In this document: positions 54,753-63,336 of the stretch, piece by piece
Position numbering within the stretch: position 1 is the stretch's first letter
Layout of the letters: each line of letters begins with the position of its first letter
Assembly: GCF_000311785.1 (NCBI RefSeq)
Contig: NZ_HE978546.1
Location: 1 to 64,000, forward strand
From: Brevibacillus massiliensis
Lineage (GTDB): Bacteria; Bacillota; Bacilli; Brevibacillales; Brevibacillaceae
Direction of reading: 5' to 3'
DNA: 64,000 nt
The notes under the pieces: generated by a model
The model's input: the letters and a program-made list of their open reading frames with translations, nothing else
What the model was told of the DNA's origin: nothing
Database searches by the model: none
Program-made: the position numbers and the translations under genes

Positions 54753-56021
54753 CTACCCATTCACGCTTGTTTTTACGTCCGTGTCCCGCTCCGACAGGTA
54801 CTCGCGTGCGCCGATCACGCCGCTTGCCCGGTCCTGTTTTTCCAACTCCAGCGCCTTCGGAACGGATATCCAGTACGCCAGGGCGATTGCCAGAGCGCCG
54901 CCCGCCACTTTGCCGATCATCAGCGGCAGGATGATTGTCGGCTGGAAGTTGGCGGAAAAGGCCAGATGATCACCGAACAGAAAGGCGGCACAGACGGCGA
55001 AGGCGATATTCAGCACTTTATCCTTCGGGCGCATGTCTCTGATCAGGCGGTACATCGCCAGGATGTTGGCGACAGTGGCCAGGATGCCCGCGCTGCCGAC
55101 TCCGCTCAGGCCTACTTTATTTCCGACGACGGCCAGCGGTCCCGCCAGGTATTTCTTGATCGTATACACCATCGGGAAAGCCCCGGCCAGCATCACGCCG
55201 ATGTAGCCCGCCGTCTCCAGCGCGCGGAATTGATCCGCCTGATCGGCGATGATCGGATCGAAGCCCCAGCCGCCGAAAAGCGCCGAAAAAGCCCCGGTGA
55301 AGTACTCCACGATGGAAAAGACCAATACCAGCTTGAGGCCGGCATCCATCATCCGCCCGAACCACATGAAGCCTTTGATCATCTGGTCGGGAAAAAACCG
55401 AAGTCCCAGCGCGATCGCCACGACAATCACGATCAACGGCGTCAGATTGGACAAGATCGTGCCAAAGCCCAAAGCCAAGTGATAGTCCGATGCCGCTTCC
55501 GTAGAGATCTGGCCGCGAACCCCCGCACTCGTCAAAGCGAGGATGGAGTTGGTGATAAACACCCCGACCGGTACGGTCAAGATGCCCGACATGATCCCCA
55601 GGGCCATGTACTTGTGATCCCGCTTATCCAGCATGGCGAGGCCCACCGGTATGCTGAAGACGATCGTCGCGCCGGCCATGAAGCCGGTGACCATCGCCAT
55701 GATCCAGCTCTCCCGACTCGCCGCCAAGGCTTCCGCCAGCTGGTATCCGCCCATGTCCGTCGCAATGAATGTGGTCGCCGCCAGCGCCGGGTCGGCCCCG
55801 ATCGCGCCGTAGACGGGGCCGAAGACGGCGCAGATGAACTTGGACAAGTACGGAATCGAGGCCATGATTCCGGCTACCGGTACGAAAATCGGGCCAATCG
55901 AGTACAGCCCCTGCAAAAACTCTTTTCCCAAGCCTTCCTCGTCATTGCGAATCGCCGCAACGGCACCGGCGACAGCGAATGCCATGATGATGTAAATCAC
56001 AATCGTACCGATCAACGCCAT
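54753..56021 (-). CDS. eutH: Ethanolamine transporter-like protein EutH
   Basis: A 422-residue membrane protein with ten or more helices, normal EutH length. Characteristic segments include GAVAAIRNDEEGLGKEFLQGL near residue 22, TTFIATDMGGYQLAEALAAS near 90 and GDHLAFSANFQPTIILPLM near 350. EutH assists ethanolamine uptake at low concentration or low pH. It is the last gene of the ethanolamine operon, 46 bp after eutC. Confidence 0.94.
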   Translation of the reverse strand: MALIGTIVIYIIMAFAVAGAVAAIRNDEEGLGKEFLQGLYSIGPIFVPVAGIMASIPYLSKFICAVFGPVYGAIGADPALAATTFIATDMGGYQLAEALAASRESWIMAMVTGFMAGATIVFSIPVGLAMLDKRDHKYMALGIMSGILTVPVGVFITNSILALTSAGVRGQISTEAASDYHLALGFGTILSNLTPLIVIVVAIALGLRFFPDQMIKGFMWFGRMMDAGLKLVLVFSIVEYFTGAFSALFGGWGFDPIIADQADQFRALETAGYIGVMLAGAFPMVYTIKKYLAGPLAVVGNKVGLSGVGSAGILATVANILAMYRLIRDMRPKDKVLNIAFAVCAAFLFGDHLAFSANFQPTIILPLMIGKVAGGALAIALAYWISVPKALELEKQDRASGVIGAREYLSERDTDVKTSVNG

Positions 56022-56067: not shown

Positions 56068-56946
56068 TCAGGAGTTTTTCAACTGCATGTACTTGACCCC
56101 GCTCGCTTTGAACCTGAGGATGTCTTCAATCAGATCCGCCAGATGAGCTCCGGCTTCTATCGGCGGTGTCCCGCCGCGGTGAATGTTGGAAATGACGGTC
56201 CGGTCCGATTCCACGCTGTTTTCGTTTGGCCGGTAAATCATGTAGGCGCTGAGGCTCTCCGCCGTCGCCAGCCCCGGCCGCTCGCCGATCAGGGAAACGA
56301 CCACTTCGCACCCGACCAATGCTGCCACCTCATCCTGCACCCAGACCCGGCCGCGCTTGATAAACACAGGCTGCCCGACGCTGATATGCTTCAGCTTCAA
56401 TCCCTGCAAGAGCGCGGACAAAAGGTCCTTGGTATTCGCTTCGACCGCCGATGAACTGAGCCCGTCGGAGACGATGATCTGCACGTCTTTCCCCTTCTGG
56501 CCGTTTTCTTTCAGCCATTGGACCGATTCGTCACACAGTTTCCTGCCCACATCCAGGTTCATCAAATACTCCTGTATATCCGCCGCTCTCGTCTTCAGCA
56601 CCGGCAGCCCCAGGTCGCGCAGAAAATCTTCGCTCACGTCTTTCATCACAGCATCGTGGGCAGCTGCCTGGTCGATTCGAAACTGCAGATAGCTGGTCGT
56701 CTTCATCCGCGTGCCGGCCCGGCCAATCGCGATACGCGCGGGAGTAATCTGCCTGGCCCGCTCGATGGTCTGAGGATTCCGCGGATTGGTCAGCCCCATC
56801 TCCTTTTCTTCGGGAAAATAGATGGTTCCCGCATCTGCCGGCTCCGTCGTCTGTTCCCCGCCCCCGGGCTGCTTTGCCTCCGTTCGCCGGGAGAGCTCCT
56901 GCAGCACTTTTTCAACAATTGCTTCCATATCAAACTGGGACATCAC
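56068..56946 (-). CDS. eutC: Ethanolamine ammonia-lyase small subunit
   Basis: A 292-residue EutC subunit of the adenosylcobalamin-dependent lyase that splits ethanolamine to acetaldehyde and ammonia. Residues 1-20 (SQFDMEAIVEKVLQELSRR) form a predicted amphipathic encapsulation helix, followed by a flexible acidic linker to about 60. The catalytic part begins TPARIAIGRAGTRMKTTSYL and includes VSDGLSSSAVEANTKD and SLIGERPGLATAESLSAYM. GTG or the adjacent ATG (56943) are possible starts behind GGAGGTGAGG. Lies 22 bp after eutB. Confidence 0.94.
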   Translation of the reverse strand: MMSQFDMEAIVEKVLQELSRRTEAKQPGGGEQTTEPADAGTIYFPEEKEMGLTNPRNPQTIERARQITPARIAIGRAGTRMKTTSYLQFRIDQAAAHDAVMKDVSEDFLRDLGLPVLKTRAADIQEYLMNLDVGRKLCDESVQWLKENGQKGKDVQIIVSDGLSSSAVEANTKDLLSALLQGLKLKHISVGQPVFIKRGRVWVQDEVAALVGCEVVVSLIGERPGLATAESLSAYMIYRPNENSVESDRTVISNIHRGGTPPIEAGAHLADLIEDILRFKASGVKYMQLKNS

Positions 56947-56968: not shown

Positions 56969-58330
56969 CTAATCAAATATCGACAAATCCCCGGCCTGCT
57001 CCGTCAACCGGCCGTCCTGCATAATCCCCATCCGCTCCAGCCACTTTTCGAACTCTCGCAGCGGCCGCAATCCGAGCATCTCCCGCAAACTGGCGTCATC
57101 GTGGTAGCTGGTGTCCTGATAGCTGAGCATGACATCGTCGCCGCCCGGCAGTCCCATGTAAAAGTTGGCTCCGGCTACCGTCGTCAGGATGCCGGCGATT
57201 TCCTGGTCGTTCTGGTCGGCGTACATGTGGTTGGTGTAGGTAGGGGCGATCCCCATCGGCAGGCCGTGCAGTTTCCCCATGAACAGATCCTCCAAGTCGG
57301 CCCGGATCACCTGGCGGCCGTCGTAAAGCGTCTCCGGGCCGATGAACCCGGACACGTTATTGACCATGAACGGCTGCCAATGTTTCGCGTAACCGTATGT
57401 CCTCGCCTCCAGCGTCTGCATGTCGACGCCCAGATCGGCGTCGAGGGAAACCTCCGAGCCTTGTCCCGTCTCGAAGTACATGACGTTCGGCCCTGTGGAA
57501 GTCCCCATCTGCCGCATCATCTCCATCCCCTCATCGAGGATCGCCCGGGAAATTCCGAACGCTTCGTTTGCCTGCTGGGTCCCCGCCAGACTCTGGAACA
57601 TCAGGGCGATCGGAGCCCCGTTTTGCAGTGCTTTCATCTGTGTGGTGATATGCGCCAGGACGCAGTTTTGCGTCGGGATGTTCCACTTGCTGATGAAGTC
57701 GTGGCTCATGTGGAGCAGCCGGGATACGCTCTCCACCGAATCGTTGTTGGGGTTGATCCCGATCACGGCATCCCCTGATCCGTAGGACAGCCCTTCCTTG
57801 ATCGAAGCCAGAATGCCTTCGGGATCATCGGTGGGGTGGTTGGGCTGAATCCGGAACGCCAGCCTGCCCGGCTCCCCGATGAGGGTGTTGCAATACGCCT
57901 GGTTGCGGATTTTTTGGGAGGCGATGACGAGATCGAGACTGGACATCAACTTCGCGACCGCGGAGATCATCTCGCTGGTCAATCCACGGCTGATGCGGGA
58001 CAGCTGGGAAAGTCCCGTCTTGTGGGAGAGGATGTACTCCCTGAGCTCCCCTACTGTCCACCCCTTGATTTCGTTGTAGATAAACAGGTTCAAGTCGTCG
58101 TAAATGATCCGTGTCACCTCGTCTGTCTCATACGGAATCAGCGGGTTTTCGTAGATGTCCTTTAACTGCAGCTCGCTCAAAACCACCTTGGCCGCCATCC
58201 GTTCGAGCGCGGAGGCGGCGGCGATTTTATTCAACCGGTCGCCGGACTTTTCCTCGCTCGCTTTCGCCATCACCTCTTTGATCGAGGAAAAGGCGTAGTG
58301 CTGCCCTCTCACCATACACGACAACTTCAC
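56969..58330 (-). CDS. eutB: Ethanolamine ammonia-lyase large subunit
   Basis: A 453-residue EutB, the TIM-barrel catalytic subunit binding ethanolamine and cobalamin. Conserved stretches include AYCNTLIGEPGRLAFRIQPNHP (in parts, near residue 150), GDAVIGINPNNDSVESVSRLL near 190 and GANFYMGLPGGDDVML near 390. GTG start with AAGGAGGG eight bases upstream. Downstream of the permease in the operon. No eutA reactivating factor is found in the window, which the enzyme normally needs. Confidence 0.96.
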   Translation of the reverse strand: MKLSCMVRGQHYAFSSIKEVMAKASEEKSGDRLNKIAAASALERMAAKVVLSELQLKDIYENPLIPYETDEVTRIIYDDLNLFIYNEIKGWTVGELREYILSHKTGLSQLSRISRGLTSEMISAVAKLMSSLDLVIASQKIRNQAYCNTLIGEPGRLAFRIQPNHPTDDPEGILASIKEGLSYGSGDAVIGINPNNDSVESVSRLLHMSHDFISKWNIPTQNCVLAHITTQMKALQNGAPIALMFQSLAGTQQANEAFGISRAILDEGMEMMRQMGTSTGPNVMYFETGQGSEVSLDADLGVDMQTLEARTYGYAKHWQPFMVNNVSGFIGPETLYDGRQVIRADLEDLFMGKLHGLPMGIAPTYTNHMYADQNDQEIAGILTTVAGANFYMGLPGGDDVMLSYQDTSYHDDASLREMLGLRPLREFEKWLERMGIMQDGRLTEQAGDLSIFD

Positions 58331-58452: not shown

Positions 58453-60006
58453 TTAGACTGAGTGCGTATTGTCCTGTGCGGAATACCTTTCCTCCTTTTT
58501 CAGGATATCTTCCAAAGAAGTGTTCAGCGCTGCTTCCGGGCCTTCAAAGTTGTTTTTGTAGTAGGCGAAATCCATGATCAGCAGGATCGCGAACATGGCG
58601 GCCAAAGCGTACGCTGCGTTTTCGTTTGGCGGAATGATCATCATGATCGAGATAAAGCCGATCCAGATCAGGCTGAGCACATTGATCGGCTTGCTCCACC
58701 TGCCCAAATTCCACGGCCCGAGGTGTTTGGCCTGGAAAGTTCCCTTCGCTTCGGCCCGCAGCTTCAAGTAAATCGGGATGCCGTAGGCGACATACAGTCC
58801 GACCACGCTGACCGCCGTCAGGAAGGCGATCGTGGTATAGGCGGTGTTCGGATTGACCGTCTTGATGATGTAGTCGACCAATGCCAGGGCAAAAGAAAGG
58901 ATCACAACCAGCCAGATCGCTTTTGCCGGGGTGCGGTATTTTTTCGAGATTTCCGCCCACTGACGGCTCCAGGGCATGCCTTTGTCGCGGGAGAACGCGT
59001 ACATCATCCGGGAAAACGAAGTGATGGAGGACAGCCCGCAAAACCACATGGCAAACGTCACCAGCCAGAGCACGACCCCGCCAAACGTCCCGCCCAGCGC
59101 CTGGGTGATGATGTAGATGTAGGCGTTGTCAGACGTGGCGGCAGCGGCTGCGTCCTTGATCGACAGCGTCACCACGGACAGCATGAGGAACCCGAAGATG
59201 AACGAAAAGGCCACGGAACTGAAAATCCCCCAGGGTGCCCGCACCCGCGGATGGACAGTCTCTTCGATCGTGTGGGCCGAAGCGTCGTATCCGGTGTACG
59301 TCCACTGCGCCTGCAAGAGTCCGATCAGAAACGCAATCATGTACGGTTTGTCGGAGAACGTCTGCCCGACCTGGAACAGGTACTCCACCGGCTGCAGGCT
59401 GTCCTTGGTAAAGAAGGCCAGGCTGACCACGAGGATCACAACCACGCCGATGTGATACCAGGCGGAGAAATCGTTGAGCCGGGCGACCACGCGAATCCCG
59501 ATGTGATTGAGGATGCCGTGCAGCAGCAGGGTGACGGCAAATACGATCAGAGTGGTCGTCTCGGTCGAGGTGTACCCGAACGACCCGGCCAGCAGCGGAT
59601 CGGCGAACAGCGCAAACGAATAATCGATCCCCGCCACGATCCCGACCTGTCCGATCAGGTTGATCCACGCCGTGTACCAGCCCCAGCGCTTGTTGGCGAG
59701 AATCGCCGCCCAGTGGTACAGCGCTCCTGCCGTGGGGATCGCCGACGTCAACTCCGCCATCGAAGCCGCGATCAGCAGGACAAAAAACGAAACGATTGGC
59801 CACCCCAGCCCCATCATGCCCGGTCCGCCGTAGTACAGACCGTGGGTGTAAAGCGAAACAGCGCCCGTTAAAATGGATATAATCGAAAACGAGATCGCAA
59901 AGTTTGAAAACCCGCCCATGTCGCGCAGCAGTTCCTGGGCGTAGCCAAATTGGTTCAGGTACTTTTTATCTTCCTGCAGTTGTCTTTGCTTGTTTTGATG
60001 GTCCAT
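58453..60006 (-). CDS. APC-family permease (probable ethanolamine/amine uptake)
   Basis: A 517-residue amino acid/polyamine/organocation transporter with about 12 helices. The N-terminal motif FGYAQELLRDMGGFSNFAIS and GGPGMMGLGWPIVSFFVLLIAASMAELTS (in parts) match the eukaryotic-like/bacterial AAT-GABA permease type; GYDASAHTIEETVHPRVRAPWG near residue 260 is a typical loop. Its place directly before eutB suggests ethanolamine or another amine as substrate. A 120 bp gap with a GCCCGGTTCG stem-loop (58427-58450) separates it from eutB. Confidence 0.88.
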   Translation of the reverse strand: MDHQNKQRQLQEDKKYLNQFGYAQELLRDMGGFSNFAISFSIISILTGAVSLYTHGLYYGGPGMMGLGWPIVSFFVLLIAASMAELTSAIPTAGALYHWAAILANKRWGWYTAWINLIGQVGIVAGIDYSFALFADPLLAGSFGYTSTETTTLIVFAVTLLLHGILNHIGIRVVARLNDFSAWYHIGVVVILVVSLAFFTKDSLQPVEYLFQVGQTFSDKPYMIAFLIGLLQAQWTYTGYDASAHTIEETVHPRVRAPWGIFSSVAFSFIFGFLMLSVVTLSIKDAAAAATSDNAYIYIITQALGGTFGGVVLWLVTFAMWFCGLSSITSFSRMMYAFSRDKGMPWSRQWAEISKKYRTPAKAIWLVVILSFALALVDYIIKTVNPNTAYTTIAFLTAVSVVGLYVAYGIPIYLKLRAEAKGTFQAKHLGPWNLGRWSKPINVLSLIWIGFISIMMIIPPNENAAYALAAMFAILLIMDFAYYKNNFEGPEAALNTSLEDILKKEERYSAQDNTHSV

Positions 60007-60030
60007 GATCTTCCCCCCCTATGGCATGGT

Positions 60031-60168
60031 TCACTTCTTCGCCTTGTGACCGATAAAGCTCTCATGGCTGCGCTCATCAAAATTTCGCACGGATTGGTTC
60101 GCCTTGTAACCGATTGCAACGGCTGCCGCCAAGACGAGAAGCAGGAGAAAAAACCCAAGAATCATCAT
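60031..60168 (-). CDS. 45-residue membrane peptide beside APC permease
   Basis: A short gene not reaching usual size cut-offs. The ATG is preceded by AAAGGAGGTGGC, an excellent ribosome site. The peptide has one hydrophobic helix (MILGFFLLLLVLAAAVAIGY) and a soluble tail (KANQSVRNFDERSHESFIGH plus AKK). It ends 24 bp before the permease start, so it is probably co-translated and may be a small accessory subunit, like MetS with NSS transporters. No named family is claimed. Confidence 0.8.
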   Translation of the reverse strand: MMILGFFLLLLVLAAAVAIGYKANQSVRNFDERSHESFIGHKAKK

Positions 60169-60301
60169 CTACGCCACCTCCTTTTTTCCTCATGTATTCT
60201 TTATAAATTTCAAAATTCCGAATATTTAGTCTTGAATGTATTCTCTCATATGATTTACCAGCTTGTAAAGATTTCCGCCTGGAATCAGAGAGACGAAAAT
60301 T

Positions 60302-60328
60302 GGCCGGAGAATGGCAGTGTCTCCGGCC
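60302..60328 (-). terminator. Hairpin after orphan binding protein
   Basis: GGCCGGAGA and TCTCCGGCC pair perfectly around nine bases just past the binding-protein stop. The following AATTTT is a modest T tract. Confidence 0.7.
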
Positions 60329-61604: not shown

Positions 61605-61790
61605 CCATCCCGCCTTTGCTTATAGGGTTCGAACATCTTGGTCCCATAAGGATGAACAGCCGCCGCCAGTTTTTCGTAATACGGGATGACGCCGTCATGG
61701 TGGGCCGCAATCGTATCCGAGGTCATGGAGGCACTGGGATGCACGGCATTCGCCTCAAGCACGATTAATCCTGCCCCGCCAGAAGCCCCC
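61589..61790 (-). pseudogene. Old-yellow-enzyme/FadH-type fragment
   Basis: About 65 codons matching an internal N-terminal piece of NADH:flavin oxidoreductases: GGAGLIVLEANAVHPSASM (compare the family's substrate loop GLI-x-EA-x-VHPSG), then DGVIPYYEKLAAAVHPYGTK. It lacks a start, the beginning of the barrel and everything after the third strand. It overlaps the end of the UPF0316 gene in another frame and ends in a terminator loop. A decayed remnant. Confidence 0.7.
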
Positions 61791-62264
61791 GACAGAATGT
61801 GTGATGTCATAAGAGATAATGAAGGCCTTGGCATCTGTCTGTTTGATCGACGACAGCAGATCGGCGTATTCTTTGCGCTTTGCGATGACCAGGTAGACCT
61901 TCCTGTAACCGCTTGCGCCTTGCCCCATCCAGGTGGTCACTCCGTATCCTCTGTCCCGCAGCTTTTGCTCCAATTCAAGCTCGTTGTCAGTGATGATCTG
62001 CAGTCCGATGTACCCCAAGGCGATTTTTTGTTCAATATAGGTTCCCAGCAAAATTCCGATCCCGTAAGATGCGCTGTAGATAATAATGCCCCAAAACGAT
62101 TCGAGGTTGTTCAGCACAAGGGCAAGCCCGTAGATGTACACCAGAATTTCAATCGTGCCGATCATGGCAGCCAGTAGCTTCCGGCCCTTGATCATCAGTA
62201 CTACCCGAAAGGAATTAAGCGAAACGTACGTAATTTGAATGAGACCCATCAACACGTAAACCAT
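61755..62264 (-). CDS. UPF0316/DUF2179 membrane protein
   Basis: A 169-residue protein with three N-terminal helices (about residues 1-75, VLMGLIQITYVSLNSFRVVLM) and a C-terminal cytosolic DUF2179-like domain (LQIITDNELELEQKLRDRGYG, VYLVIAKRKEYADL). Function of the family is unknown; DUF2179 domains resemble small-ligand sensors. The last residues (GGFWRGRINRA) run into the flavin-oxidoreductase remnant, so the natural C-terminus may have been replaced at that junction. Confidence 0.85.
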   Translation of the reverse strand: MVYVLMGLIQITYVSLNSFRVVLMIKGRKLLAAMIGTIEILVYIYGLALVLNNLESFWGIIIYSASYGIGILLGTYIEQKIALGYIGLQIITDNELELEQKLRDRGYGVTTWMGQGASGYRKVYLVIAKRKEYADLLSSIKQTDAKAFIISYDITHSVGGFWRGRINRA

Positions 62265-63192: not shown

Positions 63193-63336
63193 TTACTCCT
63201 CTTGACCCGTCCTGTTCCTGCGCATGCCAAGCTGCCCGATGATTTCCCGAATGGATACCACCGCAATGAACAGCATGCCGGCACCGCCCCAGAGAAAGAC
63301 CAGCCAGTTGTAAAACACATACATCGACAGCGACAT
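63193..63336 (-). CDS. Symporter small accessory protein
   Basis: A 47-residue membrane peptide with one hydrophobic helix (YNWLVFLWGGAGMLFIAVVS) and a basic then acidic tail (RRNRTGQEE). The ATG follows GGGGGGAG by four bases. It starts 11 bp after the SSS symporter stop and precedes the operon terminator. Short single-helix proteins of this kind are known partners of sodium:solute symporters; the assignment rests on size, topology and position. Confidence 0.82.
   Translation of the reverse strand: MSLSMYVFYNWLVFLWGGAGMLFIAVVSIREIIGQLGMRRNRTGQEE

Follow-up and report, generated by a model that had tools for sequence, protein, structure and literature searches.

A conserved single-helix membrane peptide encoded beside an APC permease of Brevibacillus massiliensis, most likely a small subunit of that permease

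The peptide gene and its surroundings

The window analyzed here is a stretch of 64,000 nucleotides from Brevibacillus massiliensis (contig NZ_HE978546.1, positions 1–64,000). A preliminary description, made from the sequence alone, had proposed an unannotated 45-residue membrane peptide directly before an APC permease but had not given its strand. We found the ORF on the minus strand at 60031–60168, where it reads MMILGFFLLLLVLAAAVAIGYKANQSVRNFDERSHESFIGHKAKK (45 aa). A single helix is predicted for residues 2–28, with a less certain prediction for the tail that follows, and this agrees with the helix-plus-tail design proposed earlier. The tail is charged and conserved, with the motif K/R-A-N-x-S-V-R-x-F-D-E-x-x-H-E-S-F-I-G. 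The Shine-Dalgarno sequence that had been noticed ahead of the peptide is AAAGGAGGTGG at 60184–60174 (minus strand), its GGAGG spaced 8 nt from the ATG; most relatives likewise have a strong Shine-Dalgarno sequence ahead of the peptide.

The stop codon of the peptide (60033–60031) and the ATG of the permease (60006–60004) are separated by a gap of 24 nt, within which a run of seven Gs (GGGGGGG, 60013–60019, minus strand) reads as the probable ribosome-binding site of the permease. The permease gene occupies 58453–60006 on the same strand. It is followed in the same direction by the genes for EutB, the large chain of ethanolamine ammonia-lyase (56969–58330), its light chain EutC (56068–56946), and EutH (54753–56021), which belongs to a separate ethanolamine transporter family. 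On the other side, a G+C-rich hairpin of 9 bp (60302–60328, minus strand; z = -2.7) lies between an upstream binding-protein gene and the peptide. The hairpin is terminator-like but has a short U tract; because of its position, the peptide probably opens a new transcription unit. The promoter-like site at 60240–60269 (minus strand) is weak (9/12, with TG ahead of the second hexamer) and not above chance, and an Rfam search over 54–64 kb returned no known RNA element at the locus. Further upstream, between the binding-protein gene and a gene for a GntR regulator, the minus strand encodes a 169-aa membrane protein with DUF5698 and DUF2179 domains (61755–62264).

Conservation of the peptide

When the 45-aa sequence was used as a query, matches at E<1e-11 were obtained in 20 of 39 genomes from the window's family (its own included), and each of them lay beside the permease. 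The frame is thus conserved in relatives, and the synonymous-site bias that the preliminary description had expected of a genuine gene is present. The mean dN/dS, taken over 29 unsaturated pairs, was about 0.12, with a mean pS of 0.67 and a mean pN of 0.16 in the family. Identities at codon positions 1, 2, and 3 among the 20 family members were 0.76, 0.90, and 0.485, respectively, the third being the variable position. The family alignment (A1) contains 17 invariant columns, and the H-x-x-F of the tail is conserved across phyla. Judged from these substitution patterns, the ORF encodes a protein, and purifying selection acts on it.

No family match was obtained for the window peptide or its relatives, of which 18 were searched against Pfam and eight against NCBIfam. 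Profile matches such as holin_2 (E 0.03) and Deltameth_res (E 0.24) fell below the cut-offs and were rejected as hydrophobic-helix noise. A plasmid collection gave no match, and a literature search, which covered mostly papers available without a subscription, found the peptide nowhere described. Taken with the comparisons below, the most likely reading is that of a hitherto undescribed small subunit belonging to a permease of the amino-acid/ethanolamine type.

Pairing with one permease clade

An intact permease was found in 21 of the 39 family genomes; 20 of these have a separate peptide gene directly upstream, and in one (G037) the two are fused. A further genome (G013) carries both genes as remnants. 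In the decayed pair (L021/L048, contig C8 of this Brevibacillus genome), the start of the peptide is gone and the permease is reduced to its last quarter. Among 398 Bacilli genomes, 34 contain a close permease (E<1e-200), and all 34 have the peptide, encoded separately and directly upstream in 28 and present as an in-frame N-terminal extra helix in six. Four distant permeases in the same 398 genomes (E about 1e-145 to 1e-150) showed neither peptide nor fusion. Only in two places did the peptide match strongly without an intact permease alongside: the decayed pair of G013 and a locus in G501 that is cut off by the end of its contig. The separate (split) form was found in Paenibacillus, Cohnella, Neobacillus, Fictibacillus, Lihuaxuella, Lucifera, and other Bacillota, as well as in metagenome-assembled genomes (MAGs) assigned to Verrucomicrobiota and Armatimonadota.

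When 88 permeases were placed in a tree, a single branch separated all 36 checkable peptide-bearing rows from 51 rows that lack the peptide. A more careful tree of 58 rows gave the peptide-bearing branch a support of 91/94 and placed the fused group (100/100) between two split groups (100/98 and 95/84). As read from this midpoint-rooted tree, in which the assignment of MAG rows may be wrong, the simplest history would be one gain of the peptide, one fusion, and no loss in the sample. The peptide-bearing clade comprises Bacillota together with metagenome genomes of Verrucomicrobiota, Armatimonadota, and Oligoflexia, and the permease positions typical of it cluster in residues 266–338 (numbering of the L062 permease), with K424 in addition. 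A conserved small protein with one transmembrane segment and a constant pairing with one transporter clade, the marks of single-helix accessory subunits of secondary transporters, are both found here.

A 46-aa one-helix peptide, MSAIGILIFLTAVGVALLVGYIANDFVGKLKAGEHEPVKGKNDRGR, was seen in two genomes of one genus (L180:1950-2090 and L181:2002-2142). It matches the peptide profile weakly (E about 0.002), has no permease within the 5-kb stretch, and is possibly an unlinked paralogue.

Natural fusions of peptide and permease

We found 14 natural in-frame fusions, distributed over Bacilli families and one Oligoflexia MAG. The product of the fused gene in G037 begins MVLFGVGLLALTLFVMISIFVKANQGVRAARQKGGIGDDLNAFGYKQELLRDMGGFSNFAISF..., the peptide helix continuing straight into the permease. 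The others in the first set of nine come from Paenibacillus sediminis, Sporolactobacillus (two), Terrilactibacillus, Loigolactobacillus, Secundilactobacillus, Lentilactobacillus, and the Oligoflexia MAG, and five more Bacilli genomes were added to these. The fused N-termini found in whole genomes were matched by the profile of the split peptides with E values from 1.9e-7 to 1.6e-3. The fusions retain the helix and A-N-x-x-V-R; F-D-E-x-x-H-E-S-F-I-G is gone and a short linker stands in its place, suggesting that the tail is a tether which the linker replaces. Since such fusions exist, physical association between peptide and permease is very likely. Besides fusion, the synteny of the two genes and their joint decay in G013 make the case for an association strong. 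They constitute the strongest evidence for a new family of permease partners, and, together with the one-to-one pairing, they substantiate by comparative genomics the coupling to the permease that had been proposed from a single locus.

Predicted structure and orientation

A structural model was obtained for the fused Terrilactibacillus protein (pLDDT 87, pTM 0.89), in which the extra helix (residues 2–32) is confident and the linker (37–62) has pLDDT values below 50. The split peptides were left out of the alignment used for structure prediction because they were misplaced when mixed with full-length sequences. A fold search with the carrier part of this relative gave Z scores of 35 to BasC and 33 to GkApcT and thereby indicated an APC fold, and all well-matched stretches started past the fused helix, from model residue 38 onward. 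The fold match of the permease is to 6f34/5oqt, and its solved homologues are remote ones only (CAT4, xCT).

All charged residues of the peptide lie C-terminal to the helix core, and it is this end that leads into the permease N-terminus in the fusions; in the APC fold the permease N-terminus is cytoplasmic. We therefore infer from the sequences that the helix is oriented with its N-terminus outside and its C-terminus inside.

Permease type and link to ethanolamine

The window permease matches Pfam AA_permease_2 with 194.8 bits (cut-off 27; E 3e-57), which places it in the APC superfamily. Its nearest NCBIfam model is TIGR00907 (2.A.3.4), with 287 bits, a score below the cut-off of 598 for that model. 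There was no match up to E 1 to TIGR00908, the ethanolamine permease model (curated cut-off 381.75). The permease had earlier been called ethanolamine-linked, and this held in part. As regards the neighbourhood, EutB adjoins the pair in the window and in many relatives, and lies within 5 kb of 9/9 fused genes of the first set and of many split ones. In Brevibacillus proper, on the other hand, EutB is mostly elsewhere on the chromosome, and loci such as L072, L076, and L078 have none within 5 kb. EutB is encoded somewhere in 19 of the 21 family genomes with the permease, whereas two (G003 and G026) have the pair without EutB; 12 family genomes encode EutB yet lack even a remnant of the permease. 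The link to ethanolamine, as far as gene content tells, is thus common but not obligatory. As regards the type of permease, the protein is of the 2.A.3.4 type, which sets it apart from the named ethanolamine permease. What it carries is probably an amino acid or a small amino alcohol, with ethanolamine as the first candidate.

Like most family genomes, that of the window contains two EutB genes, the second lying on a different contig (G000:C8:73051-74346). Fictibacillus gelatini has a true ethanolamine permease, scoring above the TIGR00908 cut-off (L071:3202-4566), directly ahead of the peptide-permease pair, and genes that read like microcompartment genes are adjacent. With such a neighbour, the permease of this pair may carry something other than ethanolamine.

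Discussion

We consider it likely, from the comparisons above, that the peptide serves the APC permease of the next gene downstream as a dedicated accessory subunit with one membrane span. Its helix would pack against the permease where this faces the lipid, and would stabilize the permease or adjust its transport cycle. The cytoplasmic F-D-E-x-x-H-E-S-F tail would dock on the permease as a non-covalent tether, a holding role that the short linker would take over in the fusions. In a wider formulation, for which the case appears evenly balanced, the pair would be a bacterial two-part APC transporter: the working carrier would have an obligatory single-helix subunit of 40–60 aa that sets stability, specificity, or coupling, a minimal analogue of SLC3-SLC7, with a docking tail that was once replaced by a covalent link.

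In the SLC3 (4F2hc/rBAT)-SLC7 light chain pairs of heteromeric amino-acid transporters, as in the peptide-permease pair, an APC-fold transporter is joined by a single-span protein. The SLC3 partner is a large glycoprotein of type II, whereas the peptide partners have 40–60 aa and no outer domain. MetS (PF16951) is a tiny single-span protein encoded beside an NSS transporter of the LeuT/APC superfamily. The peptide resembles it in being tiny, single-span, and transporter-adjacent but differs in transporter family, its neighbour being an AA_permease_2 protein and not an NSS (SNF) transporter. The MetS / MaAIMP_sms (PF16951) models in Pfam and NCBIfam matched neither the window peptide nor the relatives searched (18 in Pfam, eight in NCBIfam).

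The best precedent for reading the peptide as a permease subunit, by analogy, is the Geobacillus APC transporter GkApcT. E. coli MgtS packs against TM5 of GkApcT and creates a sterol pocket; GkApcT purified without MgtS showed lower total substrate uptake with similar initial rates, and its stabilization by CHS was lost (PMC5803215). There, as here, one short single-span protein accompanies an APC-fold transporter. Unlike the peptide, MgtS is not encoded with its transporter: it comes from E. coli, is unrelated, and was encountered by GkApcT through a chance of expression. It is oriented N-in whereas the peptide is predicted to be N-out, and the sections covered report no natural fusion for it (PMC5803215), in contrast with the fusions in the present family. 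AcrZ and KdpF are small membrane proteins too, and they make large transporters, AcrB and KdpABC respectively, more active (PMC7267776); these transporters are unrelated to the permease, and neither small protein is encoded as an invariant pair with an APC permease. Small transporter subunits are thus already known as a kind, and the single-helix permease partners are a new, widespread family.

Other explanations of the ORF have to be weighed against these data. The short length would allow a chance open frame, but the conservation of the frame, the codon bias, the synteny, and the fusions exclude it, and its likelihood is practically nil. The best argument for caution on peptide function comes from CbrX, a small putative membrane ORF which, like the peptide, lies directly upstream of a gene for a multi-span protein, CbrA, in Pseudomonas putida. 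Translation of cbrA is coupled to CbrX independently of its sequence, so that a frame-shifted peptide still supported translation (PMC6591292). The peptide might likewise be inert, its translation serving to open the start site of the permease. Such coupling would be compatible with the strong Shine-Dalgarno sequence and with the close spacing in several relatives, where the two genes overlap by 4 nt or are almost contiguous. In the present family, however, the gaps range from overlap to about 70 nt, the amino-acid sequence is selected (dN/dS, identity at codon position 2, H-x-x-F across phyla), and the helix is kept as part of the protein in the in-frame fusions. CbrX also has two predicted helices (PMC6591292), as against one in the peptide. 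Thus, selection on the peptide and the fusions argue against coupling as the sole role here, and we regard it as very unlikely.

It is also quite unlikely that the peptide is a detached N-terminal helix needed for targeting, insertion, or assembly during synthesis of the permease and not as a working subunit. Its position directly before the permease and the fusion at the permease N-terminus would suit such a factor, but a conserved cytoplasmic tail on a separately made peptide is hard to square with a pure insertion signal, and close permeases outside the clade insert without the peptide. The conserved tail motif could instead belong to a regulator that responds to a signal by inhibiting or gating the permease, as transporter-inhibiting small proteins exist (SgrT, cited in PMC7267776). 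The strictly equal gene pairing and the covalent fusions devoid of the tail argue for a constant partner, not a switch, and make a regulator of this kind unlikely.

If the peptide is a subunit, it belongs to a class of small membrane proteins that gene callers easily miss, and a permease expressed without its partner may therefore look inactive. The family spans several phyla and is paired with the APC fold that also underlies the human SLC7 transporters; its split and fused forms make the role of a single extra helix in an APC carrier a testable question.

A second small hydrophobic ORF is present in the window at 63193–63336 on the minus strand (47 aa, MSLSMYVFYNWLVFLWGGAGMLFIAVVSIREIIGQLGMRRNRTGQEE), without an NCBIfam match. 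A sodium:solute symporter gene (63348 onward) precedes it by 11 nt. In G011, another genome of the family, a 68% identical copy likewise directly follows a symporter, itself 75% identical to that of the window.
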